DNA of 54,308 nt. Source: Synechococcus sp. Tobar12-5m-g (lineage in GTDB: Bacteria > Cyanobacteriota > Cyanobacteriia > PCC-6307 > Cyanobiaceae). Made by a program: the position numbers and the translations under genes. Below the pieces are notes generated by a model, which was not told where the DNA came from, did no database searches, and saw nothing but the letters and a program-made list of their open reading frames with translations. Below, piece by piece: positions 7,926-24,521 of this stretch. The stretch spans positions 1 to 54,308 of the forward strand of contig NZ_JAGQBB010000021.1 in NCBI RefSeq assembly GCF_024345415.1, given 5' to 3'. Each line of letters starts with the position of its first letter. Position 1 is the first letter of the stretch.

Positions 7926-8230
7926 GCCATTCCGCCAGGTTGGAGTAACGCCGGCGGCCCAGGTGGTTCTTCACGGCCATCGCCAGGGCCTTCTCTGGCC
8001 CACCAGATCGCGCTGCAGCATCGCGTCGTGCTGGGTGAGCAGCGGGATCACCACGGCGGGGTATTCGCTGCCCTGGCTCTTGTGGATCGTGCAGGCGTAG
8101 CCGGTCAAGAGGTAGTCGAGTTCGCCCGGGGGTTCTGGGACACGAAAGACACCCCAACCCCCTTGCCAGATCAGGCGGCGGCCTTGGCTGGCCGGCTGCA
8201 CACTGAATGGTGGGCCAGCGGCCCGTGTCG
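7918..8230 (-). pseudogene. RecD2-like helicase C-terminal remnant
   Basis: In one frame the minus strand reads [20 protein letters not shown], then [17 protein letters not shown], which is the conserved C-terminal helicase motif of RecD/RecD2 (superfamily 1B). A second frame continues with [20 protein letters not shown] and EWLS before the stop. Between them the segment that normally includes LYTALTRA is missing, with a frameshift. Only about 80 codons of a normally 700-residue protein remain; upstream sequence is unrelated. It converges on the VOC-like gene. Confidence 0.75.
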
Positions 8231-20016: not shown

Positions 20017-20175
20017 TCAGCCCTGGCATTCGCAGCCGCAGCCGGCGTGGCAGGGCTCGCCATTGGGGTGCCCCTTGGCGCAGGCGACACTGCAGAACAG
20101 CAAGGCGCCGCAGCGGAACGGTGTTTCCGGTTGCACCGTGCAGTTGCAGCCTGGGCAGCAACAGCCCGAACGCAT
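20017..20175 (-). CDS. Second bacterial metallothionein, Cys-rich variant
   Basis: A 52-residue protein, MRSGCCCPGCNCTVQPETPF at the start, followed by LLFCSVACAKGHPNGEPCH and GCGCEC. From residue 8 on it is almost identical to the metallothionein at 7433, but it carries twelve cysteines rather than ten. The extra ones arise from a CCC start and from Arg-Cys where the other has Arg-Ser. The start may be 20175 or 20202 (MLSTCFINAM); the frame is open further up but without a likely start. The predicted role is metal binding. The orientation is opposite to copy 1, and the downstream VOC gene is broken. Confidence 0.8.
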   Translation of the reverse strand: MRSGCCCPGCNCTVQPETPFRCGALLFCSVACAKGHPNGEPCHAGCGCECQG

Positions 20176-20201
20176 GGCGTTGATGAAGCATGTGCTCAAC
20201 A

Positions 20202-20217
20202 TGTGATCATATTCACG
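20202..20217. promoter_or_regulatory. CRP-like site upstream of metallothionein 2
   Basis: TGTGATCATATTCACG matches the CRP/SyCRP1 consensus TGTGA-N6-TCACA at nine of ten positions. It lies between the 3' end of the cNMP-binding channel gene and the second metallothionein gene, and touches one candidate start codon of the latter. A single match of this length could arise by chance, so it is only a candidate. Confidence 0.3.
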
Positions 20218-20305
20218 ATGATTGTTGGTATTTCCCTCATGAAACTGACACACTTTCTCTTCCCAGAGCTTCGCAGGCGACTGGAGACCGTACCCTATTG
20301 ACTGT

Positions 20306-21853
20306 TCAGTTTCCATGGCGCACATCAACGCGCCATGGGTTAAAGGGGTCGCCAAAGATTTCATCTGGTTTCAGGCCTTGCGGCGTAGATTCATCCTGCT
20401 GGCTTAACTTGTCTTGAAGTTGAGAGGTCTCCTGGATCGCGCGACGTCGAATCTCAAGAATGTGCCCGATTTCACGGGCAAAGCTGGGCTGCCGATCAAT
20501 CATCTGGTTGACAACGTGACCGGATATCTTCATCACTTCAAGGTCAAAAAGGGCCGTTATGGTAACGGAACTCGGGTCGCCTGAGAACAAGGCCATCTCA
20601 CCGAAGAACTCACCAGATCGCAAAGAAAGAACCTCCCGATCCTGGTGACGAGCGTCGGAGGTAGACATCACCGCCTGGCCTGAAACAATGATGAAAAGTG
20701 CATTTCCAGAATGGCCTTGACGCACCACTTTTTCACCAGCAGCAAAATGCTGCAGGGAAATGCCCATAGAAGGGGCCTGCATCATTTCCTGCTCCTTGTT
20801 GAGCGGCACATAAGCTGGAAGAGCCTGTAAGCTTTCTGCGAACTTCTTTGATATCCCCTTCTGCTGAGACGATGGGCCATTGAAGTGGTAGAGAGTCCGA
20901 ATCGGAAAGGGGATTGAAAGGTTATTCCGCTTAGCGGCGTACCATACCCTGGTCATAAATCGTTCGCGTATGTTTTCAATGTCACCATAATCTCGAATGA
21001 AAAACTTCACCTCATAAGTAACCGCTGAATCGGAGTAGTCGAGAGTAAAGACACTGGGTTCTGGATCGGTCAAGACTCCCTTTGTTTCCAAGGCGGTGCT
21101 CTTCAGCACTTGCCGAGCGAGATTAGGTGGATCATTATAAGAGAAGCCCAGCTTGATCCGTTCGGCATGGATTGGGGTTGGCTGGGTGAAGTTGCGGATC
21201 ATTTCACTGCTGATCAGCTTGTGGGGGATCACAACCATCTCTTGTTCAAGCGTCAGGAGTCGGACGGCACGCCAGTTGATGTCAATCACCTGGCCCACAA
21301 CCCCATTCACCTCAAGCCAGTCACCAACGGAAAATGGCCTCTCGAACAGAAGCGCTATGCCCGACATGACACTCCCCAGTGTGTCTTGAAGCGCCAGACC
21401 GATAACGATCGAGCTCACGCCCAACGCCGTCACCAGCCCGGCTAAATCGGCATCCCAGACAGTGGCCAGAACGAAGGCTGTGCCGAGAAGAATCAGAAAC
21501 AGGCGGGCAAGATCCACCAACAACTTGGGGACTTTTGATCTCCATGTATCAGCTTCTGCTTTCTCGAAGAGAGTCAAGTTGAGCAGAGAGAGCGCTGCGT
21601 GAATCATGCAGATCCAGAGGATTGTCTCTCCAGTCTTGAAGATACGGGTGCTGGTACTTAGACCAAGAACATGCTGCAGAAACAACAAGCCAATGAAGAT
21701 TGGAATAATCACATTGCGCAGCAGTCGCAACGATTCAGCCAAGCCTTCTCCATGTCGACGCAGTCGGTGAATCGCTTCGCCGAGCAGAACAGATACCAGC
21801 GGGAAGCCTACTGCCAGTACCGCCGCCCAAAGAATGAAGTTGTTCGTGTTCAT
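20306..21853 (-). CDS. MscS-type channel with cyclic nucleotide-binding domain
   Basis: A 515-residue membrane protein. N-terminal hydrophobic segments include FILWAAVLAVGFPLVSVLLG, IIPIFIGLLFLQHVLGL and TILWICMIHAALSLLNLTLF. The pore helix and beta domain of the MscS family follow: LGVSSIVIGLALQDTLGSVM, LLFERPFSVGDWLEVNGVVG and TLEQEMVVIPHKLI. From about residue 370 comes a CNMP/CAP-type domain: FAAGEKVVRQGHSGNALFII, then LRSGEFFGEMALFSGDPSSV with a phosphate-binding-cassette-like GEMALFSG, though without the canonical Arg after the Ser/Thr. Family members couple cNMP binding to ion flow. The start overlaps the cyclase-like gene stop by one base, so the two are co-translated. Base composition is clearly AT-richer than the flanks. 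Confidence 0.92.
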   Translation of the reverse strand: MNTNNFILWAAVLAVGFPLVSVLLGEAIHRLRRHGEGLAESLRLLRNVIIPIFIGLLFLQHVLGLSTSTRIFKTGETILWICMIHAALSLLNLTLFEKAEADTWRSKVPKLLVDLARLFLILLGTAFVLATVWDADLAGLVTALGVSSIVIGLALQDTLGSVMSGIALLFERPFSVGDWLEVNGVVGQVIDINWRAVRLLTLEQEMVVIPHKLISSEMIRNFTQPTPIHAERIKLGFSYNDPPNLARQVLKSTALETKGVLTDPEPSVFTLDYSDSAVTYEVKFFIRDYGDIENIRERFMTRVWYAAKRNNLSIPFPIRTLYHFNGPSSQQKGISKKFAESLQALPAYVPLNKEQEMMQAPSMGISLQHFAAGEKVVRQGHSGNALFIIVSGQAVMSTSDARHQDREVLSLRSGEFFGEMALFSGDPSSVTITALFDLEVMKISGHVVNQMIDRQPSFAREIGHILEIRRRAIQETSQLQDKLSQQDESTPQGLKPDEIFGDPFNPWRVDVRHGN

Positions 21854-23997
21854 CAGGAGTGCTCGCTTGGCTCGGTTTCCACAGGCATCACGGTACCTTT
21901 CAGCCACCAGGCACTCAGTGTGATCGGCTCATGATCAGGAACCTTGTCGAGTTTTTCGAAGGGATAAAGATCTTCGAGGCGGTGGTGCACGGTCTGCGAA
22001 ACAAGAATTGAGCCTGGTGGACATGCATCCTTCAACTCAACAGCGAGGTTCATGGTTTTTCCCCAGACGTCATAGACGACTTTGCTCTTGCCAACGATGC
22101 CAACGGCGATATCGCCGGAATCAATTCCAATTTTTAGATTGAGATCAAAGTCACGCTCAAAATTGAAACGACGGATGACACCAAACATCTCGATGCCGCA
22201 GTCGACCGCTCGTTTGTCATGGTCGAGATACGGAGCGGATAATCCGCAAACAGCCAGATAGCGATCGCCAATCGTCTTGATCTTTTCGATACCATGACTG
22301 AGGGCAATATCATCAAACGACGCAACCAGGTCATTGAGAATTTCAACAGACTCAAAAGCACTGAGGGAGGCAGCAAGTTCGGAAAAACCTGTAACTTGCA
22401 TGTACAACACAGCTACATTGGAAATATCTTCGGCGATTTGCTTCTCGCCGTGCTGTAGGCGACGTGCAATGGCTGCTGGAAATACACTCAAGAGAAGGCT
22501 CTCATTTTCCTGGCTCTTTTGTTCCACCAGTTCTCGCTGGGAACGCAAGCTATGCAGCATCGAATTGAACGAACGACCGAGTTCACCAAACTCATCTCCG
22601 GTTTCCAGGGTGGGGATCGACTCCAGCTCGCCAGATGCCACCTTGCGGGCACTGATGTTCAGGGCACTGATCGGTTTCACGAAGAAGTGTGCGAGACCCA
22701 TCGCCACCATCGTGGTGAGGAGGATCAAAAGTGTTGCCGAAATCAGTATCTGGCGCTGGAAAGAGTGGATTGGTGCATAGGCCTCGTCCAGGTCCATCTC
22801 GGCAAGGATTACCCAATCCAGATCCTTGATCTTTAGTGGGGCGAATGAGCTAAGAACGGGAATGCTACGATAGTCCTTGATGATTTCTGTTCCCTTTCGT
22901 CCAGCTAGAGCCTGGCTGACTCCCTGTGTTTTTACCCGCAACTGAAGGATTGTGGTATCAAACTGTTGAATTCTTCTTATTATATCTTCATTGATGTTCA
23001 GCGAACGAAGGTTGGCGAAAAAAGCTTTCGGATCTTCGATCAGAAACCTGGAAATTGACCGCATCAGCTGGTCATTGCCGACCAAGTAGGTTTCGCCGGA
23101 GTTGCCGAGACCATCTTCCTTCCAGTTGCGATTACCTGTCATCACATTGTTGATTTCATTCACCGGCATCTGAAAGGCCAGGATTCCTACCAGCTCAGAT
23201 CCTCTATAGATAGGCGCAGCGATGAATGCGGCGGGAGCATCATAAGATGGCGCATAGGGTGCAAAGTCTACAAGCCTGGTGTACTTCTGCTCCTTTGCAT
23301 CCATCACTGTTCGCACAAGATTCGCAAGGTTAGAGCCTTTGTAGGGTCCACTTAAAAGATTGCTGGCAAAGTCAGTTTCCTTGAAAACGGTATAGACGAT
23401 TGTTCCTTCTGGATTGATCAGAAACATGTCATAATATCCGAAACGCTCGATTATGTTACGGAAGATGGGATGGTAGTTGGCATGCACCTTCGAATATGTG
23501 CTGTTGTCAGGAGCTCTGTTGAGAAGTTGTTTCTTGCCAACTGGGTTGGGATTGGCAGCAATGTATTGAAATTGAAGATATTGGGAAGCTGGCGGCTTAA
23601 GTAGATAGGACTGCAGAATCGGTGTTCCCGAGCGGCCCTTCATGAGACGCGGCAGGAAGATCTGAGAGTAGTAGTCTGACAACTTCTTTTCGGCTTCCTT
23701 GGATAATGAGGATCTATCCAGCTGCTTGTGTGCTGCAGTAAACTCCTGAACTGCAGATGTTATCGTTGGGTCTTCGCTGAGAGTCTGAGTATGATTTCGA
23801 ATTGTGTTGAAATAGGCCTCAATCTGGTGTGCTTTAGAGGCCCGCACACTTGTCAGTTGATTGGATACCCGGCTAGTGAGATTGTCCTTGCCGCTCCTAT
23901 AGCCAAGTGCGGCGGTTACAAAGATTGAAAAGCCGCTGACAGCGAGCACCATCAAGATTAGCTTTGACTTGATGCTCAAATGGTTCAGCGAAAGCAT
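21853..23997 (-). CDS. Cache-HAMP-class III cyclase-like sensor (degenerate)
   Basis: A 714-residue membrane sensor. A first transmembrane helix (near 12-32) is followed by a large extracytoplasmic Cache/PDC-type region (to about 400; YYDMFLINPEGTIVYTVFKE, FQMPVNEINNVM). A second helix lies near 405-430, then HAMP (VKPISALNISARKVASGELE), a short coiled coil, and a class III nucleotide cyclase fold. The cyclase fold has KIKTIGDRYLAV (Asp578) and YDVWGKTMNLAVELKD (Asn650). However, the first metal-binding Asp is Gln534 (LYMQVTGF) and the transition-state Arg is Glu654. Catalysis is therefore doubtful, although the adenine-selecting Lys and Asp are kept. It overlaps the cNMP-binding MscS gene by one base. 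Whether it makes, binds or merely senses nucleotide is unknown. Confidence 0.9.
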   Translation of the reverse strand: MLSLNHLSIKSKLILMVLAVSGFSIFVTAALGYRSGKDNLTSRVSNQLTSVRASKAHQIEAYFNTIRNHTQTLSEDPTITSAVQEFTAAHKQLDRSSLSKEAEKKLSDYYSQIFLPRLMKGRSGTPILQSYLLKPPASQYLQFQYIAANPNPVGKKQLLNRAPDNSTYSKVHANYHPIFRNIIERFGYYDMFLINPEGTIVYTVFKETDFASNLLSGPYKGSNLANLVRTVMDAKEQKYTRLVDFAPYAPSYDAPAAFIAAPIYRGSELVGILAFQMPVNEINNVMTGNRNWKEDGLGNSGETYLVGNDQLMRSISRFLIEDPKAFFANLRSLNINEDIIRRIQQFDTTILQLRVKTQGVSQALAGRKGTEIIKDYRSIPVLSSFAPLKIKDLDWVILAEMDLDEAYAPIHSFQRQILISATLLILLTTMVAMGLAHFFVKPISALNISARKVASGELESIPTLETGDEFGELGRSFNSMLHSLRSQRELVEQKSQENESLLLSVFPAAIARRLQHGEKQIAEDISNVAVLYMQVTGFSELAASLSAFESVEILNDLVASFDDIALSHGIEKIKTIGDRYLAVCGLSAPYLDHDKRAVDCGIEMFGVIRRFNFERDFDLNLKIGIDSGDIAVGIVGKSKVVYDVWGKTMNLAVELKDACPPGSILVSQTVHHRLEDLYPFEKLDKVPDHEPITLSAWWLKGTVMPVETEPSEHS

Positions 23998-24107
23998 TGA
24001 TCAGCGAGCTCAAGACAAGGGCATCATTCAAGACTTTATCTAGTTTTTTTGCTGACCACAGGTGAAGACTATAAAAGCCCGAGAGGCACAAAACTGTAGC
24101 GATAGCG

Positions 24108-24521
24108 TCACTTCCCTGGGATGGGGATCAGGTTTGTTGGCACAGCTGCGATCACGGGGTAGTGACAGGGCAGCTTTTCAGTCAGATCTAGGAGGAGCGG
24201 CCTGGAGTCATTGTTGCTAGGAAGGAGCATATCAAGGATGGCGCAGCTTGCGTGAGAAAGCTGCCACTGGACCCTGCAAGGCACTTCTTCCACATGAATG
24301 ATGTGCGCATGTTTCACCAGCCATGCATGGAAGGTAGCGACAGGTGAGGGAGCGTGTTGGTCAGCGAGCTGATTGAAACAGTCCTGGATGACCAGTGCTG
24401 AGTGGACCCCTTCCCCCTCACCGACCAAAGCGAGGGAAGCACCTGTTGCTGATTCCATGGGCGACTGACCACAAGCTCGCCGCAGACTTCGTCGATCCAT
24501 GAGAGCAAACGTGCCCATCAC
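24108..24521 (-). CDS. Hypothetical protein, uncertain
   Basis: A 137-residue open frame, with MDRRSLRRACGQSPMESATG near the start, then VIQDCFNQLADQHAPSPVAT and SHASCAILDMLLPSNNDSRP. No known domain, signal peptide or membrane helix was recognised. It lies upstream of the cyclase-like gene on the same strand, with about 110 bases between. It could be coding, but a competing frame is open over part of the same stretch. I see no ribosome binding site that decides the question. Confidence 0.3.
   Translation of the reverse strand: MMGTFALMDRRSLRRACGQSPMESATGASLALVGEGEGVHSALVIQDCFNQLADQHAPSPVATFHAWLVKHAHIIHVEEVPCRVQWQLSHASCAILDMLLPSNNDSRPLLLDLTEKLPCHYPVIAAVPTNLIPIPGK

Follow-up and report, generated by a model that had tools for sequence, protein, structure and literature searches.

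A degenerate class III cyclase receptor beside an MscS-type channel with an arginine-less nucleotide-binding domain: a candidate contact-gated pair of cyanobacteria

How could a receptor whose cyclase domain lacks part of its active site control the ion channel encoded next to it? This question is raised by two genes on contig NZ_JAGQBB010000021.1 of Synechococcus sp. Tobar12-5m-g (GCF_024345415.1), of which positions 1-54,308 were analysed, the whole stretch being called the window below. The upstream gene encodes a sensor with a class III cyclase-like domain and the downstream gene an MscS-type channel with a cyclic-nucleotide-binding domain (CNBD):

21853..23997, minus strand: sensor gene, 714 amino acids
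20306..21853, minus strand: channel gene, downstream of the sensor gene, 515 amino acids counted from ATG
21851..21855, minus strand: TGATG stop/start overlap, in which the channel ATG shares one base with the sensor stop

A sequence-only reading of this locus had supposed that an extracytoplasmic signal controls ion flow through a binding-only cyclase fold, an unusual chemistry or direct protein contact rather than by ordinary synthesis of cyclic AMP (cAMP). For the window there is good support for a signalling route other than ordinary cAMP synthesis, because the pairing of the genes is conserved, purifying selection acts on the cyclase-like domain and the usual arginine is missing from the CNBD throughout the family; no choice among the three options follows. 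We give an even chance to the pair being one member of a receptor-channel system of two cyanobacterial genes, whose pseudo-cyclase would control the channel through contact instead of making cAMP.

The sensor is laid out as follows, the transmembrane (TM) helices being placed from a low-confidence model:

residues ~9-34: TM helix
between this helix and TM2: dCache-like extracytoplasmic region
residues ~408-435: TM2
residues 435-485: HAMP, followed by a linker helix
residues 523-687: degenerate class III cyclase domain (Q534, K574, D578, D643, N650, E654)

In Pfam searches the sensor matched Guanylate_cyc (PF00211) at 7.1e-37, with 127.2 bits against a cut-off of 21.9, and HAMP at 3e-12. The dCache_1 match scored 34.4 bits against a cut-off of 45, and Cache is therefore a probable assignment; in five globin-bearing relatives (L073, L155, L158, L159 and L161) dCache_1 reached 45.1-46.4 bits. 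The AlphaFold models of sensor and channel were poor (mean pLDDT 52.8 and 53.4), and claims about pockets or interfaces were rejected since models from seven-row alignments are too weak for them. The sensor model, the one of the two that was searched, gave Foldseek fold matches to 7yz9, 5oyh and 1azs, which reflect its cyclase part.

The six catalytic positions were set by alignment with homologues carrying D, K, D, D, N and R, and six-letter strings below follow this order. The roles of the metal-binding Asp residues, the Lys/Asp pair and the Asn/Arg pair are given in PMC4215837 and PMC4886424. In the window sensor the first metal Asp is replaced by Q534 while the second is kept as D578, so that the metal pair is incomplete; the position of the transition-state Arg is occupied by E654, and the adenine-selecting Lys and Asp are present as K574 and D643. 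The homologue alignments thus bore out what had been read from the sequence, namely that Gln534 and Glu654 are altered with Asp578, Asn650 and the Lys and Asp kept. In a modelled dimer two Asp residues come from one subunit and the remaining residues from the other (PMC4886424). Lacking one residue in each half-site, the metal Asp and the Arg, the window sensor would form no standard site either as a homodimer or as a heterodimer with a normal cyclase.

Relatives were collected with a sensor-only query, which had matches within the order in 23 of 399 genomes (E <= 1e-80), within the phylum in 28 of 386 and within a second order in 56 of 243 (both at E <= 1e-60), the genome sets overlapping; a sensor-only query of genome contigs gave 6 loci. 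Six second-order matches lie outside the sample (G861:C8, two in G877, two in G850:C62 and G822:C24). In total, 112 deduplicated sensor open reading frames (ORFs), one of them the window's own, were obtained, from which eight were excluded: L170 and L078 with an output of the methyl-accepting chemotaxis type, the partial L157_3815 and L005_3898, the split L166, the truncated L052, and the stop-interrupted L112 and L129, the last of which reads DKDDNR and would make the canonical sensors 9 of 105. The remaining 104 were aligned and used for the tree and the counts.

All six residues are intact in eight of these 104 sensors, and at least one is missing in 96. The transition-state Arg is kept in 15 and both metal Asp residues in 46, with the Arg as well in 12, while the Lys/Asp adenine pair persists in 57 of the 89 Arg-less sensors. 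Homologues are therefore not mostly canonical in Asp and Arg; a canonical majority would have marked the window sensor as an isolated decayed copy, and the idea survives. Two close relatives share the substitutions fully (QKDDNE in L169) or nearly so (QKDDNA in L168). The window sensor falls in a supported clade of 38 sensors, none of which has Arg at position 654; D534 occurs in 25 of them and N650 in 23, and K574, D578 and D643 are present in all 38, where G537 and F538 are also among the 37 invariant positions of the 170 in the domain. A minimum of 12 changes for D534 and nine for the Arg was counted on the tree, a quick one with long branches on which direction was not inferred. The eight intact sensors all lie inside one related branch of 11 rows, a position that would fit repeated loss from an active ancestor.

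Beside D578 the window sensor carries Arg579 (codon at 22261-22263). This residue is confined to sensors without D534 (13 of 48, against 0 of 56 with D534). As a substitute for the lost metal it has one or two informative independent pairs, too few for the proposal, and it is kept as a lead.

Many cyanobacteria carry this pair: the channel lies downstream on the same strand in 96 of the 99 assessable sensors (94 found by script, the window's, and that of L073, whose channel was seen in L183). Five sensors at contig ends (L046, L047, L119, L144 and L150) were not assessable, and L107 was counted as linked, since it belongs with L073. When measured to the open frame of the channel, with the longest channel taken, 84 of 94 gaps were shorter than 300 bases and eight exceeded 1 kb; four of these eight belong to upstream sensors in tandem arrays, and L152 has a nearer second channel. 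The genome of the window has a second sensor-channel pair (L167, G000:C36:5622-9282), 38% identical, with N, R, S, E, N and Q at the six positions and no cassette Arg. Other arrangements are three tandem sensors (DKDDSR, DKDDTR and DKDDSA) upstream of one channel in L134 and L139, where division of labour or heterodimers are possible, and, in L152 and L157, two Arg-less channels in tandem behind the sensor locus.

The window channel consists, in order, of:

helical extension at the N-terminus
pore, beta and C-terminal domains of MscS
residues 368-454: CNBD without the Arg of the phosphate-binding cassette

It matched MS_channel_2nd (7e-20), MS_channel_3rd (7.1e-12) and cNMP_binding (3.1e-18) in Pfam, all over the cut-off. 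As noted earlier from the letters alone, the usual Arg of the cassette is missing, and its position is held by Ser428. Among 94 linked channels, which include those of L112, L129 and L166, eight are cut before the cassette, and the Arg is absent from all 86 that can be read (80 Ser, 5 Ala and 1 Ile). Ser also stands in three further linked channels, namely the L073 channel and the second one in each of L152 and L157, giving 89 of 89. The Arg-less channels include seven beside sensors with all six catalytic residues. L163 and L188, two channels of the family that have no adjacent sensor, are Arg-less too; the loss therefore marks the channel family and not adjacency to a sensor, and linkage to the sensor as its cause is ruled out. 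Nor does it follow from decay of the sensor, given these two channels and the canonical cyclases beside Arg-less ones. Outside the family, seven of eight MscS-CNBD proteins have the Arg. All eight were gathered with an Arg-type protein of the same genome as query, a choice that biases the comparison towards Arg-type relatives. The eighth, L176, has no recognisable cassette motif, and none of the eight has a sensor homologue in the flanks examined. Within the cassette, Glu419 is retained in about nine in ten channels, and position 421 is A in the window channel and A, S, V, T, G or L among the channels aligned.

The strongest sign that the cyclase fold serves a non-catalytic role comes from a branch of ten HNTSYS-like sensors, in which such a role would have outlasted the active site. 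Both metal Asp residues, D643 and the Asn are lost in all ten, and nearly all else has gone as well, except for the Lys in L073 and the Arg in L158. All ten carry a C-terminal globin (PF00042) and all ten have retained the channel. The globin-bearing sensors are:

L074, L159, L158, L075, L073, L151, L154, L155, L161, L076 and L153: Cache-like region, HAMP, pseudo-cyclase, globin

Ten of these eleven lie beside an Arg-less MscS-CNBD channel, the exception being L153. In L170 the same Cache-HAMP module is joined to a methyl-accepting chemotaxis output (Pfam), which would fit a conformational relay. L077 and L078, whose alignment to the sensor is limited to residues 1-484, probably have the same arrangement.

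The degenerate cyclase domain is under purifying selection. Between the window and L168 or L169, the ratio of nonsynonymous to synonymous rates (dN/dS) was 0.037 and 0.040 for the cyclase domain, 0.060 and 0.053 for the CNBD, 0.019 and 0.013 for the pore region, and 0.128 and 0.095 for the Cache region; the values for L168 equal those for L001, and the two look like one record. Across nine further family pairs the cyclase-domain ratio ranged from 0.023 to 0.272. Sensor and channel also diverged together. Over 89 pairs their distances correlate at r 0.947, a value matched by 0 of 1000 permutations, which make no correction for species relatedness. Eleven genomes offer at least two usable pairs, and the true pairing came out best in 10 of them, all but the one with L142/L143. 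Distances of the cyclase domain gave r 0.843 with the CNBD, 0.852 with the TM extension of the channel and 0.625 with the Cache region of the sensor itself. When only the 44 pairs devoid of both the Arg and the metal pair were taken, the corresponding values were 0.714, 0.772 and 0.509, with partial correlations of 0.27 for the CNBD and 0.54 for the TM extension. Shared rates may explain part of this tracking.

Taken along the protein, the signal might travel as follows. An extracytoplasmic signal would act on the Cache-like domain and then on the TM helices and HAMP. HAMP would in turn act on a dimeric cyclase-like domain that presumably no longer makes cAMP and that, in the clade of the window, probably binds an adenine nucleotide in the old active site. 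The pseudo-cyclase would then change shape and touch the MscS-type channel, at the ring of Arg-less CNBDs, at the N-terminal TM helices or at both, and ion flow would be set by the receptor besides, or in place of, membrane tension. Several observations weigh against such contact gating. Three sensors (L130, L153 and L162) have no channel in the stretch read, and of the two family channels without a sensor nearby, L163 shares its genome with the lone sensor L162 on another contig and L188 has no sensor within 13 kb. In eight sensors all six residues are canonical, and seven of these have a readable Arg-less channel beside them, so that cAMP may still play a role in some family members. The low cyclase-domain dN/dS in the window comes partly from a higher dS there, and the ratio is higher for cyclase than for Cache in three of the nine other pairs (L031/L032, L038/L039 and L065/L067). 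In the 44-pair subset Cache follows the CNBD equally well (r 0.738, partial 0.44), and correlated distances can also arise from relatedness and from rate changes common to both partners.

In another explanation, the sensor or a partner cyclase still makes cAMP near the channel, an Arg-less CNBD reads only a high local level, and the missing residues merely lower the activity. Twelve of the 104 sensors, including the eight with all six residues, have both metal Asps and the Arg, and 11 of the 12 stand beside a readable Arg-less channel, L150 being at a contig edge; most cassettes keep Glu419, and class III enzymes found in nature can lack the Asn alone and stay active (PMC4215837 and PMC4886424). 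The window sensor, however, lacks the first metal Asp and the Arg, the Arg is absent from its entire clade, the HNTSYS-like sensors have kept their channel almost without catalytic residues, and the genome's remaining three Guanylate_cyc matches, leaving aside the C36 paralogue, lie on other contigs. We regard such a local messenger as unlikely. A similarly low probability attaches to the pseudo-cyclase mainly reading ATP, ADP or AMP, and thus the energy state, through its Lys/Asp pair and relaying this to the channel, with the Cache input secondary. This would account for the five residues invariant in the 38-sensor clade, for the Lys/Asp pair in 57 of 89 Arg-less sensors and for the restriction of Arg579 to sensors that have lost D534. 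Other clades, however, have the channel and no Lys/Asp pair, the Arg579 link has the one or two informative pairs mentioned above, and the clade's conservation may be structural, because 37 of the 170 positions do not vary.

It is also conceivable that the sensor joins another cyclase and gives half a site, like mammalian C1/C2. The 46 sensors with both metal Asps, only 12 of which have the Arg too, and the differing tandem sensors of L134 and L139 are what one might expect from such partners, but the window sensor lacks a residue in each half-site and the C36 paralogue, with N, R, S, E, N and Q, cannot complement it, which rules out that heterodimer; in general we consider half-sites improbable. 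Least probable by far is a decaying copy without function. Two catalytic residues are lost and the segment is low in G+C and probably acquired, but the frame is open, the domain has a dN/dS of about 0.04, and L169 and L168 share the substitutions or nearly so within a family-wide pattern, which rules out a single decayed copy.

Among known systems, the channel recalls the bacterial cyclic-nucleotide-gated (bCNG) channels, reportedly members of the MscS superfamily with a C-terminal CNBD (Caldwell 2010; Malcolm 2012). The order of MscS pore, beta and C-terminal domains and CNBD is the same in the window channel, whereas Ser, Ala or Ile in place of the cassette Arg and the near-constant operon with a Cache-like/HAMP/cyclase-like sensor set the linked channels apart; the pairing with pseudo-cyclases is what is new. 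The sensor shares the PF00211 domain and the fold matches of its model with class III membrane adenylyl cyclases (Rv1625c/Cya, CyaC, mammalian C1/C2), but differs from them in its active site, as do the 96 family members in which the set of six residues is incomplete. Pycsar defence combines a PycC cyclase with a CNBD effector (PycTIR or PycTM), and here too a class III-like cyclase gene adjoins a CNBD effector. In contrast, the window pair has a transmembrane Cache-like/HAMP receptor, a degenerate catalytic site and an Arg-less CNBD; membership was ruled out by weak, domain-level matches (best 1.7e-8 for the sensor and 2e-10 for the CNBD part of the channel) and by the MscS effector in place of PycTIR or PycTM. 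In kinetoplastid protein kinase A (PKA) regulatory subunits a polar residue likewise replaces the cassette Arg, and the ligand is a nucleoside, helped by an Ala-to-Glu change whose Glu binds the ribose hydroxyls (PMC10959531). This marker Glu, at the position of PKA Ala202/326, is absent at position 421 of the window channel and of the channels aligned, which rules out a nucleoside pocket of that type.

The operon itself is compact and of unusual composition. Both the one-base overlap and the low G+C described before were found again: the junction reads TGATG, and the four 1-kb bins between 20 and 24 kb have a G+C of 0.476-0.530, against 0.557-0.750 in all other bins of the window. An identical one-base overlap occurs in L001 (sensor ORF end at 8145, channel ATG read from 8145), and the ORF listing offers an alternative channel start, GTG at 21907, upstream of the ATG. 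A comparison by blastn delimits the segment:

20192..24274: operon-sized cassette over which the window DNA matches L168 at 88%

Outside it, the 16-kb locus of L168 gave no further blastn match to the window, and in L169 the match is the operon plus three separate short stretches; the pair therefore looks acquired as a unit, and the low-G+C segment probably came from elsewhere. A promoter and terminator scan counted 4 where shuffles averaged 3.4, and 7 where they averaged 4.7, and was set aside. Adjoining the operon is the following ORF:

20017-20364, minus strand: ORF of 115 amino acids with a sub-threshold match to prokaryotic metallothionein (PF02069, 26.7 bits, cut-off 33)

At a somewhat less than even probability, we propose that widespread cyanobacterial MscS channels are receptor-gated, with a class III pseudo-cyclase as a conformational relay that would act by contact through a cyclic-nucleotide-blind CNBD; such pairs would derive from an ancestral cyclase-channel operon with repeated death of the enzyme, one branch having added a globin as gas or redox input. 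The pairing with degenerate cyclases, the family-wide loss of the Arg and the globin branch were not found by title or abstract in an open-access library, outside which most subscription papers lie, so that absence from print is not established. The family offers a natural gradation of cyclases, some intact and others almost wholly degenerate, all beside the same channel type, which makes the transition from enzyme to contact signal and the ligand of the Arg-less CNBD testable. Our results suggest that bacteria have turned a dead signalling enzyme to the control of an ion channel, and if this is true, the pair would be a ligand-sensing bacterial channel complex with a pseudo-cyclase in place of a second messenger.

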